This document shows positions 42,828-49,171 of a stretch of DNA of 64,000 bases, in pieces. This DNA comes from Microbacterium sp. (GTDB lineage: Bacteria > Actinomycetota > Actinomycetes > Actinomycetales > Microbacteriaceae): assembly GCA_017306415.1 (NCBI GenBank), contig JAFKIL010000003.1, forward strand, positions 310,001 through 374,000. Direction: 5' to 3'. Position 1 is the first letter of the stretch. Each line of letters starts with the position of its first letter. The notes under the pieces are model-generated. The model saw only the letters and a list, made by a program, of their open reading frames with translations. It was not told the origin of the DNA and ran no database searches. The position numbers and the translations under genes are program-made.

Positions 42828-43271
42828 ATGATGGCACGTGAGGTCCTCACCCTCGGGCAGGTGCGCATCCACGGCGGCGGAGCGACGCGCGAAGAGGCGA
42901 TGAAGGAGGCCGCCGACATCCTGCAGGCGGCGGGCGCCGTCACCGGCGGGTACTACGACGCGATGCAGCAGCGCGAGCAGACGGTGTCCACCTACATGGG
43001 CAACGAGCTGGCCATTCCGCACGGCACGAACGAGACGAAGGACACGATCCTCGAGTCGGCCCTGTCGTTCGTCCGCTACGACGGCGGTGTGGACTGGGGC
43101 GGCGAGCCGGTCAGCTTCGTCGTCGGCATCGCGGGCAAGGGCGACGAGCATCTCGGGATCCTGTCCCAGATCGCGATCCTGTTCTCGGACGAGGACGACG
43201 TCGCCCGCCTGAAGGCCGCACAGACGCCGGAGGAGCTGTTCGGGCTCCTCTCCAGCGTGAACGCGTCATGA
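42828..43271 (+). CDS. mtlF: Mannitol-specific PTS IIA component
   Basis: 147 residues. The active-site histidine is H65 in NELAIPHGTNETK; the PTS IIA type 2 fold continues to LSQIAILFSDEDDVARL. It takes phosphate from HPr and gives it to the IIB domain of MtlA. ATG 42828 follows CAAGGAGAAAGGCGG; ATG 42831 is the adjacent alternative. Its last bases overlap mtlD (ATGA). Confidence 0.94.
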   Translation: MMAREVLTLGQVRIHGGGATREEAMKEAADILQAAGAVTGGYYDAMQQREQTVSTYMGNELAIPHGTNETKDTILESALSFVRYDGGVDWGGEPVSFVVGIAGKGDEHLGILSQIAILFSDEDDVARLKAAQTPEELFGLLSSVNAS

Positions 43272-44422
43272 GGGCCGTCCACTTCGGCGCGGGGAACATC
43301 GGTCGCGGGTTCGTCGGCCTGCTCCTGCATCAGGGCGGGTACGAGCTGACGTTCTCGGACGTCGCAGCCCCCCTCGTCGACGCGATCAACGACGTCGACG
43401 CCTACACGGTCCACGAGGTCGGCGAGGGCGGAGTCGACACGGTCGTCACCGGGTTCCGCGCCATCAACAGCGCGGACCACCCCGACCTCGTGATCGAGGC
43501 CATCGCGGGCGCGAACGTCGTCACGACGGCGGTCGGGCCCACCATCCTGCGCTTCGTCGCCCCGCTCGTGGTGTCCGGTCTCGCGCTGCGCGATCCGTCC
43601 TCTCCCCCGCTGCAGATCATGGCGTGCGAGAACGCGATCAACGCGACCGACATCCTTCGCGACGAGATCCGGGCGCAAGCCGGCGAGGCGTGGGACGCGC
43701 TCGCGTCGCGCGCGGTGTTCGCCAACACGGCGGTCGACCGGATCGTCCCGGCCCAGCCCGAGGGTGCGGGCGTCGACGTCACCGTGGAGCCGTTCTTCGA
43801 GTGGGCGATCGAGCGCCCGCCGTTCGGCGACGACCCGCCCCACATCCCCGGTGCCCACTTCGTCGACGACCTCACCCCGTACATCGAGCGGAAGCTCTTC
43901 ACGGTGAACACGGGCCACGCCACGACCGCGTACTACGGCGCACGGGCGGGGATCGAGCGCATCTCCGACGCGCTCGCCGACCCTGACATCGCCGCGCGCG
44001 TCGCCGCCACCCTCGAGGAGACCTCGGAGCTGCTGGCCGCGAAACACGAGCTGGATCCGGCGGACCTCTCGACCTACCGCGCGACCATCCTGAAGCGCTT
44101 CCGCAATCCCGCCCTCCCCGACACCGTGTGGCGGGTCGGCCGCCAGCCCCTGCGCAAGCTGTCCCGGCACGAGCGATTCGTCGGGCCGGCGGCCGAGGCG
44201 GCAGAGCGCGGCCTCCCCGTCGCCCAGTTGGTCGCTGCGATGGGTGCGGCGCTCGAGTTCGACGACCCCGAAGATCCGCAGTCCGTCGACATGCAGCGCC
44301 TGCTTCGCGAGCAGGACGCGGATGCGTTCACTGCGGCTGTCACCGGTCTCGATCCGTCGCATCCGCTGTACGCGCGGGTGCGCGAGGTGGTCGCTGCGAG
44401 GCAGGCTACGCTGACGGCGTGA
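43268..44422 (+). CDS. mtlD: Mannitol-1-phosphate 5-dehydrogenase
   Basis: 384 residues, typical size. The NAD motif HFGAGNIGRGFVG at the N-terminus is diagnostic; ACENAINATD and the KLFTVNTGHATTAYYG catalytic region follow. It oxidises mannitol 1-phosphate to fructose 6-phosphate, completing the pathway encoded upstream. Its stop overlaps the next start (GTGA at 44419). Confidence 0.95.
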   Translation: MRAVHFGAGNIGRGFVGLLLHQGGYELTFSDVAAPLVDAINDVDAYTVHEVGEGGVDTVVTGFRAINSADHPDLVIEAIAGANVVTTAVGPTILRFVAPLVVSGLALRDPSSPPLQIMACENAINATDILRDEIRAQAGEAWDALASRAVFANTAVDRIVPAQPEGAGVDVTVEPFFEWAIERPPFGDDPPHIPGAHFVDDLTPYIERKLFTVNTGHATTAYYGARAGIERISDALADPDIAARVAATLEETSELLAAKHELDPADLSTYRATILKRFRNPALPDTVWRVGRQPLRKLSRHERFVGPAAEAAERGLPVAQLVAAMGAALEFDDPEDPQSVDMQRLLREQDADAFTAAVTGLDPSHPLYARVREVVAARQATLTA

Positions 44423-45723
44423 CAGGACACGTGGCGGCGCAGACCCTCGCCGTCATCGGTGCCGGCCCGTCCGGTCTCGCGGCGGCGCGCGCGCTGTCGA
44501 AAGCGGGCATCGCGTTCGACGGATACGAGGCGTCCCGCGGCGTCGGCGGCCTGTGGGACATCGAGAACCCCCGGTCGACGATGTACGAGTCGGCCCACCT
44601 CATCTCCTCTCGCACGACCACGCAGTTCGCCGAGTTCCCGATGGAAACGGACGCGGACTACCCGGGGCATCGCGTCCTCCTGGAGTACTTCCGCGCCTAC
44701 GCGGAGCGGTTCGGGCTCGCGACGCACTACCGGTTCGGCACGCGCGTCACCGCGATCGACCGCGCCGCAGACGGCGGATGGATGCTTCGTGCCACCGGCC
44801 CCGACGGCGAGACCGAGAAGCGCTACGACGGCGTCGTCATCGCGAACGGCACGCTCGCCGAGCCCAACGTGCCGCGGTTTCCCGGGCGGTTCGACGGCGA
44901 GATCCTGCACACGAGCGCCTACAAGACCGGACCTCAGCTCGCCGGGCGACGGGTGCTGATCGTCGGCGCGGGGAACTCGGGCTGCGACATCGCGGTGGAC
45001 GCCGTCCACCACGCGGCATCCGTCGACATGAGCGTCCGGCGCGGCTACTACTTCGTGCCGCGCTACCTCTTCGGGAAGCCGTCCGACACCCTCAATCAGG
45101 GCAGACCTCTCCCCGCCCGGATCAAGCAGTTCGTCGACACGCGCGTGCTGCGCGCGTTCACCGGGGATCCCGTCCGGTTCGGGTTCCCGAAGCCGGACTA
45201 CCGCCTGTACGAGTCGCATCCGATCGTGAACACGCTCATCCTGAATCACCTCGGGCAGGGCGACCTGCGCATCCGGGCGGACATCGAACGCTTCGAAGGC
45301 GCGACGGTGCACTTCCGCGACGGGACGGCGGCCGACTATGACACGGTGCTGCTCGCGACCGGGTACCGGCTGGACTATCCCTTCGTCGACCGCGCGGAGC
45401 TGAACTGGTCGGGCTGGTCGCCGCGCCTCTTCCTCAACGTCTTCCCACCGTCGTTCACCGGGCTCTACATCATGGGGATGATCGAGGCGTCGGGCATCGG
45501 GTGGCAGGGCCGGTACGAGCAGGCTGAACTCATCGCGGCGTACCTCTCCGCCGCCCCCGCCGTGCAGGCGGCGTTCCGGCGCAGGGTGTCCGCCGAGCCG
45601 TGGCCCGACCTCACCGGCGGCTACCACTACCTCGGACTCGAGCGGATGTCGTACTACGTCAACAAGGACGCCTACCGTCGCGCCGTTCGCGACGCGACAC
45701 GAGCCCTGACCGCCGGCGGCTGA
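44419..45723 (+). CDS. Flavin-containing monooxygenase (FMO/Baeyer-Villiger type)
   Basis: 434 residues. FAD motif GAGPSGLAAARAL (14-26) and a second nucleotide motif VLIVGAGNSGCDIAVDA fit class B flavin monooxygenases; ATGYRLDYPF closes the family pattern. Its GTG overlaps the mtlD stop, although it has no clear role in mannitol use. A TACGCT hexamer (44407-44412) six bases before the GTG could let it be transcribed alone as a leaderless mRNA. Substrate unknown. Confidence 0.87.
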   Translation: MTGHVAAQTLAVIGAGPSGLAAARALSKAGIAFDGYEASRGVGGLWDIENPRSTMYESAHLISSRTTTQFAEFPMETDADYPGHRVLLEYFRAYAERFGLATHYRFGTRVTAIDRAADGGWMLRATGPDGETEKRYDGVVIANGTLAEPNVPRFPGRFDGEILHTSAYKTGPQLAGRRVLIVGAGNSGCDIAVDAVHHAASVDMSVRRGYYFVPRYLFGKPSDTLNQGRPLPARIKQFVDTRVLRAFTGDPVRFGFPKPDYRLYESHPIVNTLILNHLGQGDLRIRADIERFEGATVHFRDGTAADYDTVLLATGYRLDYPFVDRAELNWSGWSPRLFLNVFPPSFTGLYIMGMIEASGIGWQGRYEQAELIAAYLSAAPAVQAAFRRRVSAEPWPDLTGGYHYLGLERMSYYVNKDAYRRAVRDATRALTAGG

Positions 45724-45756
45724 GGCGGCCGGCGGGCCGTGAGGCCGCCGGCGCGC

Positions 45757-45842
45757 GTGCAGAACTCCACGGATCCGCTTCGGTATGCGTGATATCCGGT
45801 GAGTTCTCCTCCGGAGGACCCCACATCCGTGGAGTCCTGCAC
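45757..45842. repeat. 86-bp element, copy 1: 18-bp inverted repeat with 50-bp interior
   Basis: GTGCAGAACTCCACGGAT (45757-45774) and ATCCGTGGAGTCCTGCAC (45825-45842) are complementary except at one position. The interior is exactly 50 bases, as in copy 2, and includes the palindrome TCCTCCGGAGGA. It lies in the 309-bp stretch after the monooxygenase gene that has no intact gene. Confidence 0.85.
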
Positions 45843-45932
45843 CGAAGTGCTGGGAGATGCTCGGCGCAGTGGTGATCCACAGGGCGCCGGCGCGAACCCT
45901 TCCACGGGCACGCCGCCGACTTCGCTGTCCTG

Positions 45933-46032
45933 ATGTCGACAACGGATATCCAGAGTGCAACCGGCGACCTCCTATGGAGCGAGTTCATGACTCCGCAGAC
46001 CTTCCGAGAGCTCGGTGTGACGCGCCGGTGGC
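45933..46032 (+). pseudogene. Possible remnant of the DUF559 gene N-terminus
   Basis: One frame reads MSTTDIQSATG... then MTPQTFRELGVTRR, which looks like the winged-helix lead of longer AbiEi/DUF559 proteins. The DUF559 frame starts in a different phase at 46033. An internal deletion with frameshift would explain both. Short and tentative. Confidence 0.3.
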
Positions 46033-46644
46033 ATGCACCTTCAATTCACGCCGGGTACGACCCGGCTCCCTCCCCGGCCGGCGCACGTCATCGCACACTG
46101 GCGCGTCACCGCCGGGAATCGGCGCCGGCTCACGACCGACCTTGTCGAAGCCCTCGTCCAGGCGACGCGCCGCCAGTCTCCCCGCGATGCGATCGCCACG
46201 CTGGAGAGCGCGTGGCATCACTGCCTGATCGACGAGTCGGATATCGCCGAGATCTTCCGCCGTCTGCCGCTCCGCTACCGATCGTTGCGCCCTCTGCTCG
46301 ACCGGCGGGCCGAATCGGGTGCCGAAACGCTCATGCGTCTTGTTCTTCGCGTGCTCGGGTGCGACGTCCAGGTGCAGGTAGCCATCGCCGGTGTGGGTCG
46401 CGTGGACCTCCTCGTCGACGGGTGGCTCATCGTGGAGTGCGACAGCAGAGCCCTCCATGACGGATGGGCAGCACACGCCCGGGACCGCAGACGGGATCTG
46501 GCTGCCGCCGCTCTCGGCTATACGACGGTTCGCCCGCTTGCCGAAGACATCTTCTACGACCAGGACGACCTCGTCACCACGATGAGAAGGATCGTGCAGA
46601 ACTCCACGGATGTGACCGGAAATCCGCAACGAAAGCCTTCATGA
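46033..46644 (+). CDS. DUF559 (Vsr/PD-(D/E)xK-like) protein, N-terminally shortened
   Basis: 203 residues. The C-terminal part fits DUF559: E98 in SGAETLMR, then VGRVDLLVDGWLIVECDSR with D125, E135 and D137 as likely metal ligands, then RDRRRDLAAAALGY. Actinobacterial relatives usually have 270-310 residues with an N-terminal winged helix and AbiEi-like region; only the end of that region is present here. The last codons (VQNSTD) are the left arm of repeat copy 2, and the stop lies inside that repeat. Such proteins are thought to be nucleases, sometimes linked to toxin-antitoxin or mobile loci. Function here is unknown. Confidence 0.7.
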   Translation: MHLQFTPGTTRLPPRPAHVIAHWRVTAGNRRRLTTDLVEALVQATRRQSPRDAIATLESAWHHCLIDESDIAEIFRRLPLRYRSLRPLLDRRAESGAETLMRLVLRVLGCDVQVQVAIAGVGRVDLLVDGWLIVECDSRALHDGWAAHARDRRRDLAAAALGYTTVRPLAEDIFYDQDDLVTTMRRIVQNSTDVTGNPQRKPS

Positions 46645-46679
46645 CTCCCGCGCTAGCCAGAATCCGTGGAGTTCTGCAC
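46594..46679. repeat. 86-bp element, copy 2: perfect 18-bp inverted repeat with 50-bp interior
   Basis: GTGCAGAACTCCACGGAT (46594-46611) and ATCCGTGGAGTTCTGCAC (46662-46679) are exactly complementary. The interior is 50 bases, unrelated to most of copy 1. The left arm codes for the last residues of the DUF559 protein. Arms of both copies sit 68 bp apart centre to centre. Confidence 0.9.
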
Positions 46680-46722
46680 ACGGCGAGCCCGTCCGCGGCT
46701 CCGCGCTGACGCGGCTGGGGCC

Positions 46723-47838
46723 TCAGCGGTCGAACCCCTCCGCGATGAGCTCGATCAGCTCCTCCCGCTCCTCGACGGGGAGGAACGCCGCCGCCGCGGC
46801 GTTGAGCTGGAACGCCTCGAGGTCGTCGAGGTCGTAGTCGAACGCCTCGACCAGCAGCGCGAGCTCCCTCGTGAGCGACGTGCGGCTCATGGTGCGGTTG
46901 TCGACGTTCACCGTCACGGTGAACCCGAGCTGGTAGAGGAGGTCGAATGGATGGTCCGCCATCGCGTCGCCCCAGCGTTCGATCGCGCCGGTCTGCAGGT
47001 TGGATGACGGCGACAGCTCGAGCGGGATCTCCCGGTCGCGCACCCAGCGGGCCAGGTCGCCGAACTGCACCAGGACCTCCTCACCCTCCTGGGAGACGAT
47101 CTCGAGATCCTCGGCGATGCGCACGCCATGGCCGAGTCGCAGCGCCCGCCCGTCGATCAACGCGGAACGGATCGAGTCGAGCCCCGCCGCCTCCCCCGCG
47201 TGGACCGTCGCGGGGAAGAACTCCGACGCGAGGTAGTCGAAGGCGGCGGCGTGCCGGGACGGGAGGAATCCGTCCTCCGGCCCGGCGATGTCGAAGCCGA
47301 CCGCGCCCCTTCCTCGCCAGTCGACGGCGAGCTTCGCGATCTCCAGCGAACGGTCGGTGTGCCGCATCGCGGTGATCAGCTGCCCCACCCGGATGTCGCG
47401 GCCCGCGCTCTCCGCCGCGTCCTCCGCCTGCTCGATGCCCTCCTGCACCGCGGCGACCGCCTCGTCGAGACTGAGACCCGATTCGAGGTGCTGCTCGGGC
47501 GCCCAGCGCACCTCCCCGTAGATCACGCCGTCGGCGGCGAGGTCCTCGACGAATTCGCGGGCGATCCGCGTGAGCGCATCCGCGGTCTGCATGACCCCGG
47601 TGGTCAGATCGAAGGTCTTGAGGTACTCGACGAGCGACCCGGAGTCGCACTTCTGCGCGAACCACTCCGCGAGCGCATCGCCGTCGCTCTCCGGCACCGG
47701 GATGCCGGCCGCGTCGGCGAGCTCGATGATGGTCGCGGGGCGCACGCCGCCGTCGAGGTGATCGTGCAGTGACACCTTGGGCAGGCCGCGCAGCGAGACG
47801 CCCTGCACGCGGGCGTCGCCGTTCTGGTCGATGGACAT
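46723..47838 (-). CDS. add: Adenosine deaminase
   Basis: 371 residues. Zinc motif SLHDHLDGG (H25, H27), the VHAGEAAG helix, RLGHGVRI and a C-terminal NVDNR in the place of the usual TDDP. It converts adenosine or deoxyadenosine to inosine. ATG 47838 has a GAGGAG site six bases upstream; a longer frame to 47919 lacks one. It follows deoA by 28 bp and is the last gene of the salvage cluster. Confidence 0.92.
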   Translation of the reverse strand: MSIDQNGDARVQGVSLRGLPKVSLHDHLDGGVRPATIIELADAAGIPVPESDGDALAEWFAQKCDSGSLVEYLKTFDLTTGVMQTADALTRIAREFVEDLAADGVIYGEVRWAPEQHLESGLSLDEAVAAVQEGIEQAEDAAESAGRDIRVGQLITAMRHTDRSLEIAKLAVDWRGRGAVGFDIAGPEDGFLPSRHAAAFDYLASEFFPATVHAGEAAGLDSIRSALIDGRALRLGHGVRIAEDLEIVSQEGEEVLVQFGDLARWVRDREIPLELSPSSNLQTGAIERWGDAMADHPFDLLYQLGFTVTVNVDNRTMSRTSLTRELALLVEAFDYDLDDLEAFQLNAAAAAFLPVEEREELIELIAEGFDR

Positions 47839-47866
47839 GTCGCTCTCCTCGATGTCGGGGGGATGG

Positions 47867-49171
47867 TCAGGCGGTGATGCGCTCGCGGACGATCGACTGC
47901 ACGGCCGGAGCCTGGGCACCGACGTGCCACGCGCCGTCCAGTGCCGTCAGCGCGCGGTCGAACCGCGATCCATCATCCGCCGACAGGGTGAACAGCGGCT
48001 GACCGGCGGCGACCGCGTCCCCGGGCTTGACGTGAAGGTCGATGCCGGCCGCGTGGACGACGGGATCCTCGGCACGCGCCCGTCCCGCGCCGAGTCGCCA
48101 TGCGGCGATCCCGAACGGAAGGGCGTCCATGCGCTCGACCACACCCGCGGCATCGGCGGTCACGGTGTGGGTCTCGCGCGGCACGGGGAGCGCGGCATCC
48201 GGGTCGCCGTCCTGTGCCCGGATCATCGCGCGCCATGCATCCATCGCGCGCCCGTCCGCGAGGGCCGTCTCGACGTCGGCGTCGGGCTGGCCGGCGAGGG
48301 AGAGCATCTCGCGCGCGAGGGCGACGGTCAGCTCGACGACGTCCGCGGGACCACCGCCTGCCAGCACCTCCACCGACTCGCGCACCTCGTTCGCGTTCCC
48401 GATCGCGAGTCCGAGCGGCGTGTTCATGTCAGTGAGGACGGCGGTCGTGGCGACCCCCGAGTCGGTGCCGAGCGCGACCATGGTGCGGGCGAGCTCACGC
48501 GCACGCTCGATGTCGTGCATGAACGCGCCGGAGCCGAACTTGACGTCGAGCACGAGCGAGTGGGTGCCCTCGGCGATCTTCTTCGACATGATGCTGGACG
48601 CGATCAGCGGGATCGCCTCGACCGTCCCGGTGACGTCGCGGAGGGCGTACAGCTTCTTGTCCGCCGGCGCGAGGCCCGAGCCCGCGGCGCAGATGACCGC
48701 GCCGACATCGTGGAGCTGAGCGACGATCTCGTCGTTCGACAGCGCGGCGCGCCAGCCGGGGATCGACTCGAGCTTGTCGAGCGTCCCGCCCGTGTGGCCG
48801 AGGCCGCGACCCGAGAGCTGCGGCACCGCCACGCCGAAGCTCGCGACCAGGGGGGCCAGCGGCAGAGTGATCTTGTCGCCGACGCCGCCCGTCGAATGCT
48901 TGTCGACCGTCGGCTTGCCGAGGCCCGTGAAGCTCATGCGCTCGCCCGACGCGATCATCGCATCGGTCATCACGCGGATCTCGTCGCGGGTCATCCCGTT
49001 CAGCAGCACCGCCATCGCGAATGCCGACATCTGCGCGTCCATGACGTAGCCGCGCGTGTACGCGTCGACCATCCAGCGCAGGGCGCCCTCGGGCACCTCC
49101 CCGCCGTCGCGCTTGGCACGGATGACGTCGACCGCGTCGAACGGCTCGACGGCCGCCGGTCCGTCGCTCAC
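47867..49171 (-). CDS. deoA: Thymidine (pyrimidine-nucleoside) phosphorylase
   Basis: 434 residues. KHSTGGVGDKITLPLAPLVA is the phosphate-binding signature, followed by SGRGLGHTGGTLDKLESIPG, DVKFGSGAFM and a C-terminal PYNP-like domain. It splits thymidine, deoxyuridine or uridine. The GTG at 49171 overlaps the cdd stop, so both are co-translated: deaminated cytidine goes straight to phosphorolysis. Confidence 0.95.
   Translation of the reverse strand: MSDGPAAVEPFDAVDVIRAKRDGGEVPEGALRWMVDAYTRGYVMDAQMSAFAMAVLLNGMTRDEIRVMTDAMIASGERMSFTGLGKPTVDKHSTGGVGDKITLPLAPLVASFGVAVPQLSGRGLGHTGGTLDKLESIPGWRAALSNDEIVAQLHDVGAVICAAGSGLAPADKKLYALRDVTGTVEAIPLIASSIMSKKIAEGTHSLVLDVKFGSGAFMHDIERARELARTMVALGTDSGVATTAVLTDMNTPLGLAIGNANEVRESVEVLAGGGPADVVELTVALAREMLSLAGQPDADVETALADGRAMDAWRAMIRAQDGDPDAALPVPRETHTVTADAAGVVERMDALPFGIAAWRLGAGRARAEDPVVHAAGIDLHVKPGDAVAAGQPLFTLSADDGSRFDRALTALDGAWHVGAQAPAVQSIVRERITA

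Follow-up and report, generated by a model that had tools for sequence, protein, structure and literature searches.

A 64,000-nt stretch of Microbacterium DNA, the whole of which we call the window, carries a DUF559-type nuclease gene between two 86-bp elements, each made of two inverted arms. Sequence statistics reveal that such elements bracket related genes, that their arms match across the gene and are spaced almost invariably, and that they are dispersed, share a helical A/T rhythm and change more slowly in the arms than elsewhere, while the proteins keep an invariant set of residues. On balance, we believe that the elements are probably the cognate sites of the DUF559-type nuclease, which would recognise and nick these paired sites on duplex DNA and probably spread them; that the protein binds, bends and nicks DNA, and that copies spread through templated repair, is what we infer from these patterns.

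Two paired-arm elements flank a DUF559-type gene

Two 86-bp elements had been noted at 45757-45842 and 46594-46679 of the window, and both were recovered. An arm search of the window allowing up to three mismatches returned four arms, against a chance expectation of 0.03 per window; three are perfect and one carries a single mismatch. Copy 1 (45757-45842), upstream of the gene, consists of a perfect 18-mer left arm (45757-45774, plus strand), a 50-bp interior (45775-45824) and the mismatched right arm (45825-45842, minus strand). Copy 2 (46594-46679) overlaps the 3' end of the gene and has two perfect arms, at 46594-46611 (plus strand) and 46662-46679 (minus strand), around an interior of again 50 bp (46612-46661). 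Arm starts are 68 bp apart in both copies. The earlier note had the left arm of copy 2 encode the last residues of the protein. By ORF translation the arm does encode residues (VQNSTD), and ten further codons and the stop codon follow in the interior. The same note described the elements as facing each other, which has little meaning because each element is itself an inverted pair. We also considered the arms as small hairpins; this is true by eye for GTGCAGAACTCCAC, and such hairpins are absent from the arms of other families, so the idea was rejected.

The window gene looks broken and its locus is conserved

The ORF between the elements (46033-46644, plus strand) contains the middle and the Vsr-like nuclease part (MTES_1575/DUF559) of the gene. 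Its best Pfam match is MTES_1575 (1.5e-6), followed by a weaker match to DUF559 (0.017), both below the Pfam cut-offs. In the M. ulmi orthologue, which has 329 residues, the ORF corresponds to residues 118-321. For residues 1-117 the sole counterpart is a weak match of residues 43-71 (E 0.005) in a different frame, marking a probable 5' gene remnant at 45933-46032 (plus strand, its first residues placed by eye) from which the HTH-bearing N-terminal region is mostly missing. The gene had been described as shortened. The N-terminal part is indeed mostly missing by comparison with the orthologue, and because only residues 118-321 match in frame while the rest has just the weak match in another frame, the window gene looks like a broken copy.

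The locus is marked by an upstream gene at 43268-44422 (plus strand) and a downstream gene at 46723-47919 (minus strand), which we take to be mtlD-like and add-like, respectively. Neighbour comparison placed the studied gene beside add or mtlD in all 30 closest homologues, in 16 of 20 in the next group and in none of 20 in a third group (group C), with the add-like neighbour marking the locus in 28 of the 30 closest. The proposal that the gene and its two elements form one mobile unit does not agree with this conserved neighbourhood (30/30 and 16/20). The DUF559-type gene at the add/mtlD locus looks vertically inherited because it keeps this position, and the dispersed part appears to be the elements. 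In M. ulmi the locus is the same and the gene is intact, with an element on either side of it; the interiors of these two elements are unrelated.

A probable winged-helix head and a Vsr-like nuclease tail

An AbiEi_4 winged-helix match was present at the N-terminus of one of four intact homologues over the cut-off (2e-6) and of another just under it (4.3e-5); two had none. The winged-helix match is followed by a Vsr-like nuclease domain, for which DUF559 exceeded its 20.6-bit cut-off in three of the four and MTES_1575 stayed under 38.2 in all four. Glu-188, Asp-215, Glu-225, Asp-227 and His-232 (E188, D215, E225, D227 and H232) are invariant in 47 of 47 aligned proteins, the alignment comprising 47 of 70 after removal of stop-bearing or partially matching genes and of L164. 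These candidate catalytic residues occupy what we take to be the expected places of a PD-(D/E)xK centre. Profile comparison with the PDB identified 3hrl, an 'Endonuclease-Like Protein' (6.4e-4 over the nuclease part). Three proteins had no match in NCBIfam, and PADLOC returned mainly weak AbiEi matches for two. The bracketed genes thus belong with the DUF559 (PF04480) and REase_MTES_1575 (PF18741) nucleases with AbiEi_4 heads. MTES_1575_REase has been described as having the Vsr REase fold and occurring in fusions with HEPN and other domains (PMC3710099).

Inverted pairs often bracket the genes and match across them

Core-based detection at the 30 best homologues in the genus identified an element upstream of 26, downstream of 28 and on both sides of 25, and all listed pairs at these genes were spaced 67-69 although 62-75 was allowed. 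We then scanned 70 DUF559/MTES_1575-type genes without regard to arm sequence. An inverted pair was present upstream of 54, downstream of 58 and on both sides of 48, and absent from one or both sides of 22; the scan found a pair in 21 of 182 control zones (ordinary own-genome stretches, intergenic and other) and in 4 of 140 zones shuffled in 40-base blocks. Pairs on both sides occurred in 22/30 genes of group A (the 30 best genus matches), 14/20 of group B and 12/20 of group C, where B and C were hand-picked from lists with some rows skipped and four of the 20 in C are other genes of the window's own genome.

In the 48 genes with pairs on both sides, mean arm similarity was 14.8 within a gene versus 7.7 between genes, a difference reached in none of 10,000 permutations; the 12 genes of group C alone also showed matching within the gene (0/10,000). 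Arm similarity tracked protein identity (Mantel r 0.62, 0/5000, 43 genes), a correlation that could result from descent alone. Group C consists of paralogues located elsewhere, many with wholly different arms (L181, L182, L183, L192, L195 and L196); the arms of L190 are of the AACTCC type and some paralogues have no pairs. The suggested connection between the arms and the DUF559-type protein therefore gained ground on four counts: bracketing in 48 of 70 genes, arms matched across the gene, the arm-protein correlation and the unrelated arms of paralogues. Variable spacing with no tie to DUF559, or relatives having the gene and no arms, would have spoken against it; spacing is nearly fixed and the gene association strong, and most relatives do have arms on both sides (25/30, and 48/70 in the wider set). 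A gene-site link is strongly supported by these comparisons.

Dispersed copies were sorted by arm type, by our own count and in a few genomes, among the pairs listed. In G259, 9 of 11 listed pairs away from the gene had the gene's TGCA type in both arms, and in G253 the gene's TCC type was found in 7 of 7 listed away from it (10 of 26 pairs being listed, 3 at the gene). The AC type accounted for 5 of 5 listed pairs in G049, and fit to the gene's type was 7/11 in G068 and 6/12 in G138. G198 disagreed, with TGAG-type arms at the gene and, among 18 listed pairs, 15 of the AC type and 1 of the TGAG type. By this count dispersed copies appear mostly to match the resident gene, G198 being the exception. 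For the mismatch in G198 (L104, L121), a second gene or a replaced gene may be the explanation.

A second family, predicted from the flanks of a paralogue, was dispersed in G138, where three of seven copies lie away from the gene. The window's own genome has one exact copy only, beside the gene, and 4 of 198 genomes matched. In G138 (L182; G138:C1:2917301-2921086), three second-family elements stand in tandem upstream of the paralogue, two of them identical between the inner ends of the arms. Total element lengths in group C lie between 68 and 100. Steps near 76, 88-92 and 100 are an impression only, and arm ends are not comparable across families. G101 retains elements orthologous to those of G049, and its best protein match is just 3.2e-20.

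The elements form a dispersed family in Microbacterium

In the window's own genome, 35 single arms were found with up to two mismatches (reversed-pattern control, 0). The stretches around them contain at least 19 pairs, with arm starts 68 bp apart in 16, 67 in two and 80 in one. These 19 elements are probably no longer spreading, because the enzyme gene looks broken. The exact 11-base core was then searched in a collection holding one genome for each of 84,980 species. Of the 44 stretches recovered, all belong to Microbacterium except those in a MAG with the bare name 'Actinomycetes bacterium'. Within the genus, 19 of 295 genomes had the core at a single fixed gap with up to two mismatches, several with a single weak match (reversed control, 0), and at least one relative of the studied gene was present in 282 of the 295. 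The element interiors of genome G010 are those of M. ulmi.

The number of AACTCC...GGAGTT pairs at the expected gap, counted with those beside the gene, followed the class of the homologue (p 1e-6; reversed control, 0 or 1 per genome). The median was 13 in 31 genomes with a close homologue (30 of group A and the own one), 2.5 in 14 hand-picked genomes with a weak one and 0 (range 0-5) in 11 of the 13 without a match, the other two being incomplete. Among the 31 genomes with a close homologue, the number spanned 1 to 65, the highest count being in G085; G313 had 48. The spacing was 68 bp in 123 of 164 elements, 67 in 29 and 69 in 12, in a search limited to 67-69.

Plasmids searched at 1e-15 gave no match. 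A search of the phylum at 1e-12 returned mainly another, shorter DUF559 type (9/198 genomes), and among ten loci of that type pairs on both sides were seen at L210 only. That locus, from another actinobacterial genome, has a short DUF559 gene flanked by palindrome pairs of the TGTTTCACGTGAAACA type (L210 1372-1442 and 2027-2090), a palindrome that, we presume, resembles parS.

Several unusual arrangements were also recorded. Two elements directly abut in the own genome (L011 5003-5174). The end of a large ORF with an MTES_1575-type nuclease match is about 210 bp away from the element at L009 5000-5085 (G000:C1:1071299-1071384). MAG 1_bin.17 contains arrays of two or three elements with differing arm families (L057 3049-3322, L055 4314-4597 and L049 2241-2432) at a pitch of 94 or 105-106 bp.

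Elements lie mostly between genes and often close to stop codons

Gene calls made with simple scripts gave a context for 63 elements, those less than 250 bp from a locus end being left out. Of these, 27 lie in codirectional, 17 in convergent and 8 in divergent gaps, making 52 outside gene calls, and 11 lie within genes. Background gaps numbered 120, 35 and 63, respectively (chi-square p 0.011). Divergent gaps held 8 of 52 intergenic elements versus 63 of 218 background gaps (p 0.054), and in codirectional gaps the stop codon was the nearer end for 22 of 27 elements, at a median of 14 bp. These positions are unlike those of operators and resemble the distribution reported for REPs (PMC3733652).

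The interior has a helical rhythm and little sign of a hairpin

The earlier note considered the interiors free. Their letters do differ between the two window copies, and 'free' is not quite right because a family-wide A/T rhythm of about 10 bp exists. In 123 non-redundant elements of 68-bp spacing, A/T recurred every ~10.25 bp in register with the dyad (amplitude z 31), and the rhythm amplitude was 4.08 versus 0.09 in 320 control windows. When each element was scored with no assumed phase, z was 21.4 for 164 elements versus -2.3 to 2.5 for five sets of flanking sequence. The rhythm was present in groups A (z 12.3) and B (z 8.8), weak in the paralogues of group C (z 3.1), and detected in the own genome, where 11 elements passed the filter (z 4.9); it is a result for the family as a whole rather than for window copy 1 taken singly. 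Since A and T each add to the signal, common descent of particular letters does not suffice to account for it.

Complementarity of the interior about the dyad was close to the expectation from other elements, and interiors folded only slightly better than shuffled ones (z -0.26, t -2.6). The rhythm together with the near-absent hairpin signal suggests that the interior is duplex DNA bent around a protein.

Arms change slowly and some sites seem old

In nine orthologous pairs of elements, 7 of 324 arm sites had changed (2 of 162 in the core), versus 42 of 448 in the interiors and 95 of 1800 in the flanks. The rate in the arms is lower than in interiors (p 3e-5) and in flanks (p 0.015), with a downward bias from choosing pairs in which both members have recognisable arms. 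One in-frame site is common to four species, with diverged interiors and preserved arms (L014 5058, L059 7650, L065 6098 and L080 3355); this element encodes about 28 residues of an ATPase that we take to be ABC-F-like. Another site is common to three species. At least 13 of 69 sampled elements, elements with diverged arms being outside the sample, occupy a site shared with another species; this count comes from a strict test that replaced a looser translated search, whose 35 pairs were in many cases probably due to chance in G+C-rich DNA. The arms seem to have been maintained over long times, and the long-shared sites are as compatible with functional sites retained over time as with old repeats.

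None of these comparisons caught a transposition event. An orthologous site at which the sister species G101 and G049 differ in having the element is not a clean insertion, and neither is the site of the in-gene element of M. ulmi. Among 198 genus genomes, none other exceeded ~83% identity at the region tried for an empty site. Target-site duplications of 4 or 5 bp at the arm edge were found in 0 of 123 elements. A 3-bp duplication there was in weak excess (10/123 versus 4.3), and small excesses also occurred at further offsets, the largest inside the arm, before any correction for the many offsets tried. A candidate transposition in M. ulmi (L081 2794-3035 and L082 5872-6113) proved to be a 242-bp segmental copy of 98% identity with the element near its middle, and was rejected; the copy may have been made during repair. 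We infer that the elements are mobile.

A nuclease with probable paired sites of its own, and competing explanations

In the mechanism that we favour, the elements would serve as cognate sites for a protein family that joins a winged helix of the AbiEi type, at the head, to a PD-(D/E)xK nuclease of the Vsr/DUF559 type, at the tail; many members would have their own arm sequence. The protein would grip both inverted arms at once on duplex DNA, the interior being bent with A/T facing the same way at every helical turn and the two arms thereby brought together. Copies usually bracket the gene, which they may control; others are scattered, many of them a short way past a stop codon. The nuclease would probably nick or cut at the arms, and new copies could arise from repair templated by an existing copy. 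The elements would then be non-autonomous and REPIN-like, served by an enzyme that resides in the genome and is inherited vertically.

A wider reading is more tentative, and we rate it at a little less than an even chance: that this is an undescribed class of enzyme-repeat systems without tyrosine transposases, in which Vsr/DUF559-type nucleases with winged-helix heads recognise, bend and copy their own paired sites on duplex DNA and several orthogonal families with private arms coexist in a genome. Element length would perhaps be set for each family by helical turns, and the nuclease gene would stay fixed, flanked by copies of its site, as the sites themselves spread and afterwards endure over long periods.

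Rather unlikely, by comparison, is that the elements are static regulatory or chromosome-organising sites of a DUF559-type HTH protein, forming DNA loops under selection with no spread driven by the nuclease. Such sites could explain the slow change of the arms (subject to the selection bias of the orthologous pairs), the positions common to three or four species with diverged interiors, one of them in frame in the ABC-F-like gene, and the helical rhythm and near-fixed spacing, which fit a loop complex. However, proximity to stop codons (22/27) and scarcity in divergent gaps misfit promoter operators, and the candidate nuclease residues are invariant. Copy number varies from 1 to 65 across the 31 genomes with a close homologue, and at least 13 of 69 is the share of sampled elements at a site shared between species, both of which we count against static sites. 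We retain this alternative because the comparisons gave no clean empty site and no 4-5 bp duplication, and because of the long-shared sites.

It is improbable that gyrase or a nucleoid protein wraps DNA at the elements, as at BIME-2, and that the adjacent DUF559 gene is incidental. A location after genes is typical of supercoil-linked sites and counts in favour. So does the G+C period of 10.75 bp reported for gyrase sites, close to the rhythm found here (PMC6379681), although that motif is degenerate and extends over ~130 bp whereas the present rhythm is confined to ~86 bp between gene-matched arms. A general factor would not explain why the arms on the two sides of a DUF559-type gene match, nor why they vary from gene to gene and among paralogues, and the flanks showed no such rhythm.

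Transcription terminators, or RNA hairpins acting in transcripts, are a still weaker candidate, and a very improbable one. The 18-bp arms could pair in RNA and many elements lie just past stop codons, but no intrinsic terminator (GC-rich stem, short loop, T run) was detected in 45700-46760 with loops of 3-8 scanned, and the window stretch around the elements had no Rfam match. Interior complementarity about the dyad is at expectation, it is hard to see what a helical rhythm would mean in RNA, and one element lies within a reading frame in four species. The initial view of the elements as paired sites, not terminators, thus holds. Ordinary REPINs that depend on a RAYT, a Y1 tyrosine transposase, are scarcely credible: inverted doublets at a fixed distance are shared with GI REPINs, whose 16-mers start 71 bp apart (PMC3116915), but the HUH Y1 model (Y1_Tnp, PF01797), positive in 5 of 14 control genomes, has no match in the own genome, the gene between the elements comes from a different family and the interior does not pair. 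Within the reach of the Pfam model, this explanation is refuted for the own genome.

Comparison with known repeat systems

The analogy with REP elements and RAYT enzymes that the earlier note drew is apt for the layout of inverted doublets, fixed spacing and an enzyme gene between repeats. Like REPIN/RAYT systems (REPtrons of Proteobacteria), the proposed nuclease-site system has conserved arms and a less conserved spacer, an arm distance that is fixed (68 bp here versus 71 bp in GI REPINs; PMC3116915), a location after genes and several families per genome, and enzyme and repeat co-evolve in REPIN/RAYT as well (PMC8266576). The flanking of the partner gene by cognate repeats is alike in form only, given the different enzyme and its occurrence in 48 of 70 genes. 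The partner here is a Vsr/DUF559-type nuclease with a probable winged-helix head rather than an HUH tyrosine transposase, and the spacer is unpaired, with a helical A/T rhythm and no compensatory hairpin. We therefore do not file the system under REPIN/RAYT, since the own genome has no match to a Y1 transposase and the spacer is not a hairpin. The enzymes of TIRtrons are likewise tyrosine transposases (PMC3733652), unlike the DUF559-type partner. BIME-2/gyrase sites share a composition period of about one helical turn (PMC6379681). MITEs are also short and dispersed, with inverted termini and no gene inside; their interiors are shared, whereas those of the present elements are mostly unlike between copies, a few local duplicates apart, and for this reason and the lack of a 4-5 bp target-site duplication at the arm edge the MITE reading was set aside.

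The literature searched on REPIN/RAYT, DUF559, MTES_1575 and Microbacterium REPs, mostly open-access, yielded no report of this enzyme-repeat system and no sign of a DNA site tied to DUF559/MTES_1575 proteins; the main text of one REP survey mentions neither Microbacterium nor Actinobacteria nor DUF (PMC3733652). DUF559-type genes are common and unexplained. With a private target readable beside the gene, the function of many of them becomes directly testable, and the many natural enzyme-site pairs make a ready set for studying how DNA specificity changes. If the favoured mechanism is true, it would be a second, unrelated solution to the RAYT/REPIN role, working on bent duplex DNA and not on single-strand hairpins.

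The arms of the window family contain, by eye, neither the GTAG nor the CGTC tag. CGTC-tagged REPs apparently have no dedicated transposase (Di Nocera 2013, PMC3733652), and the arms of the paralogues L183, L184 and L192 start with CGTC.
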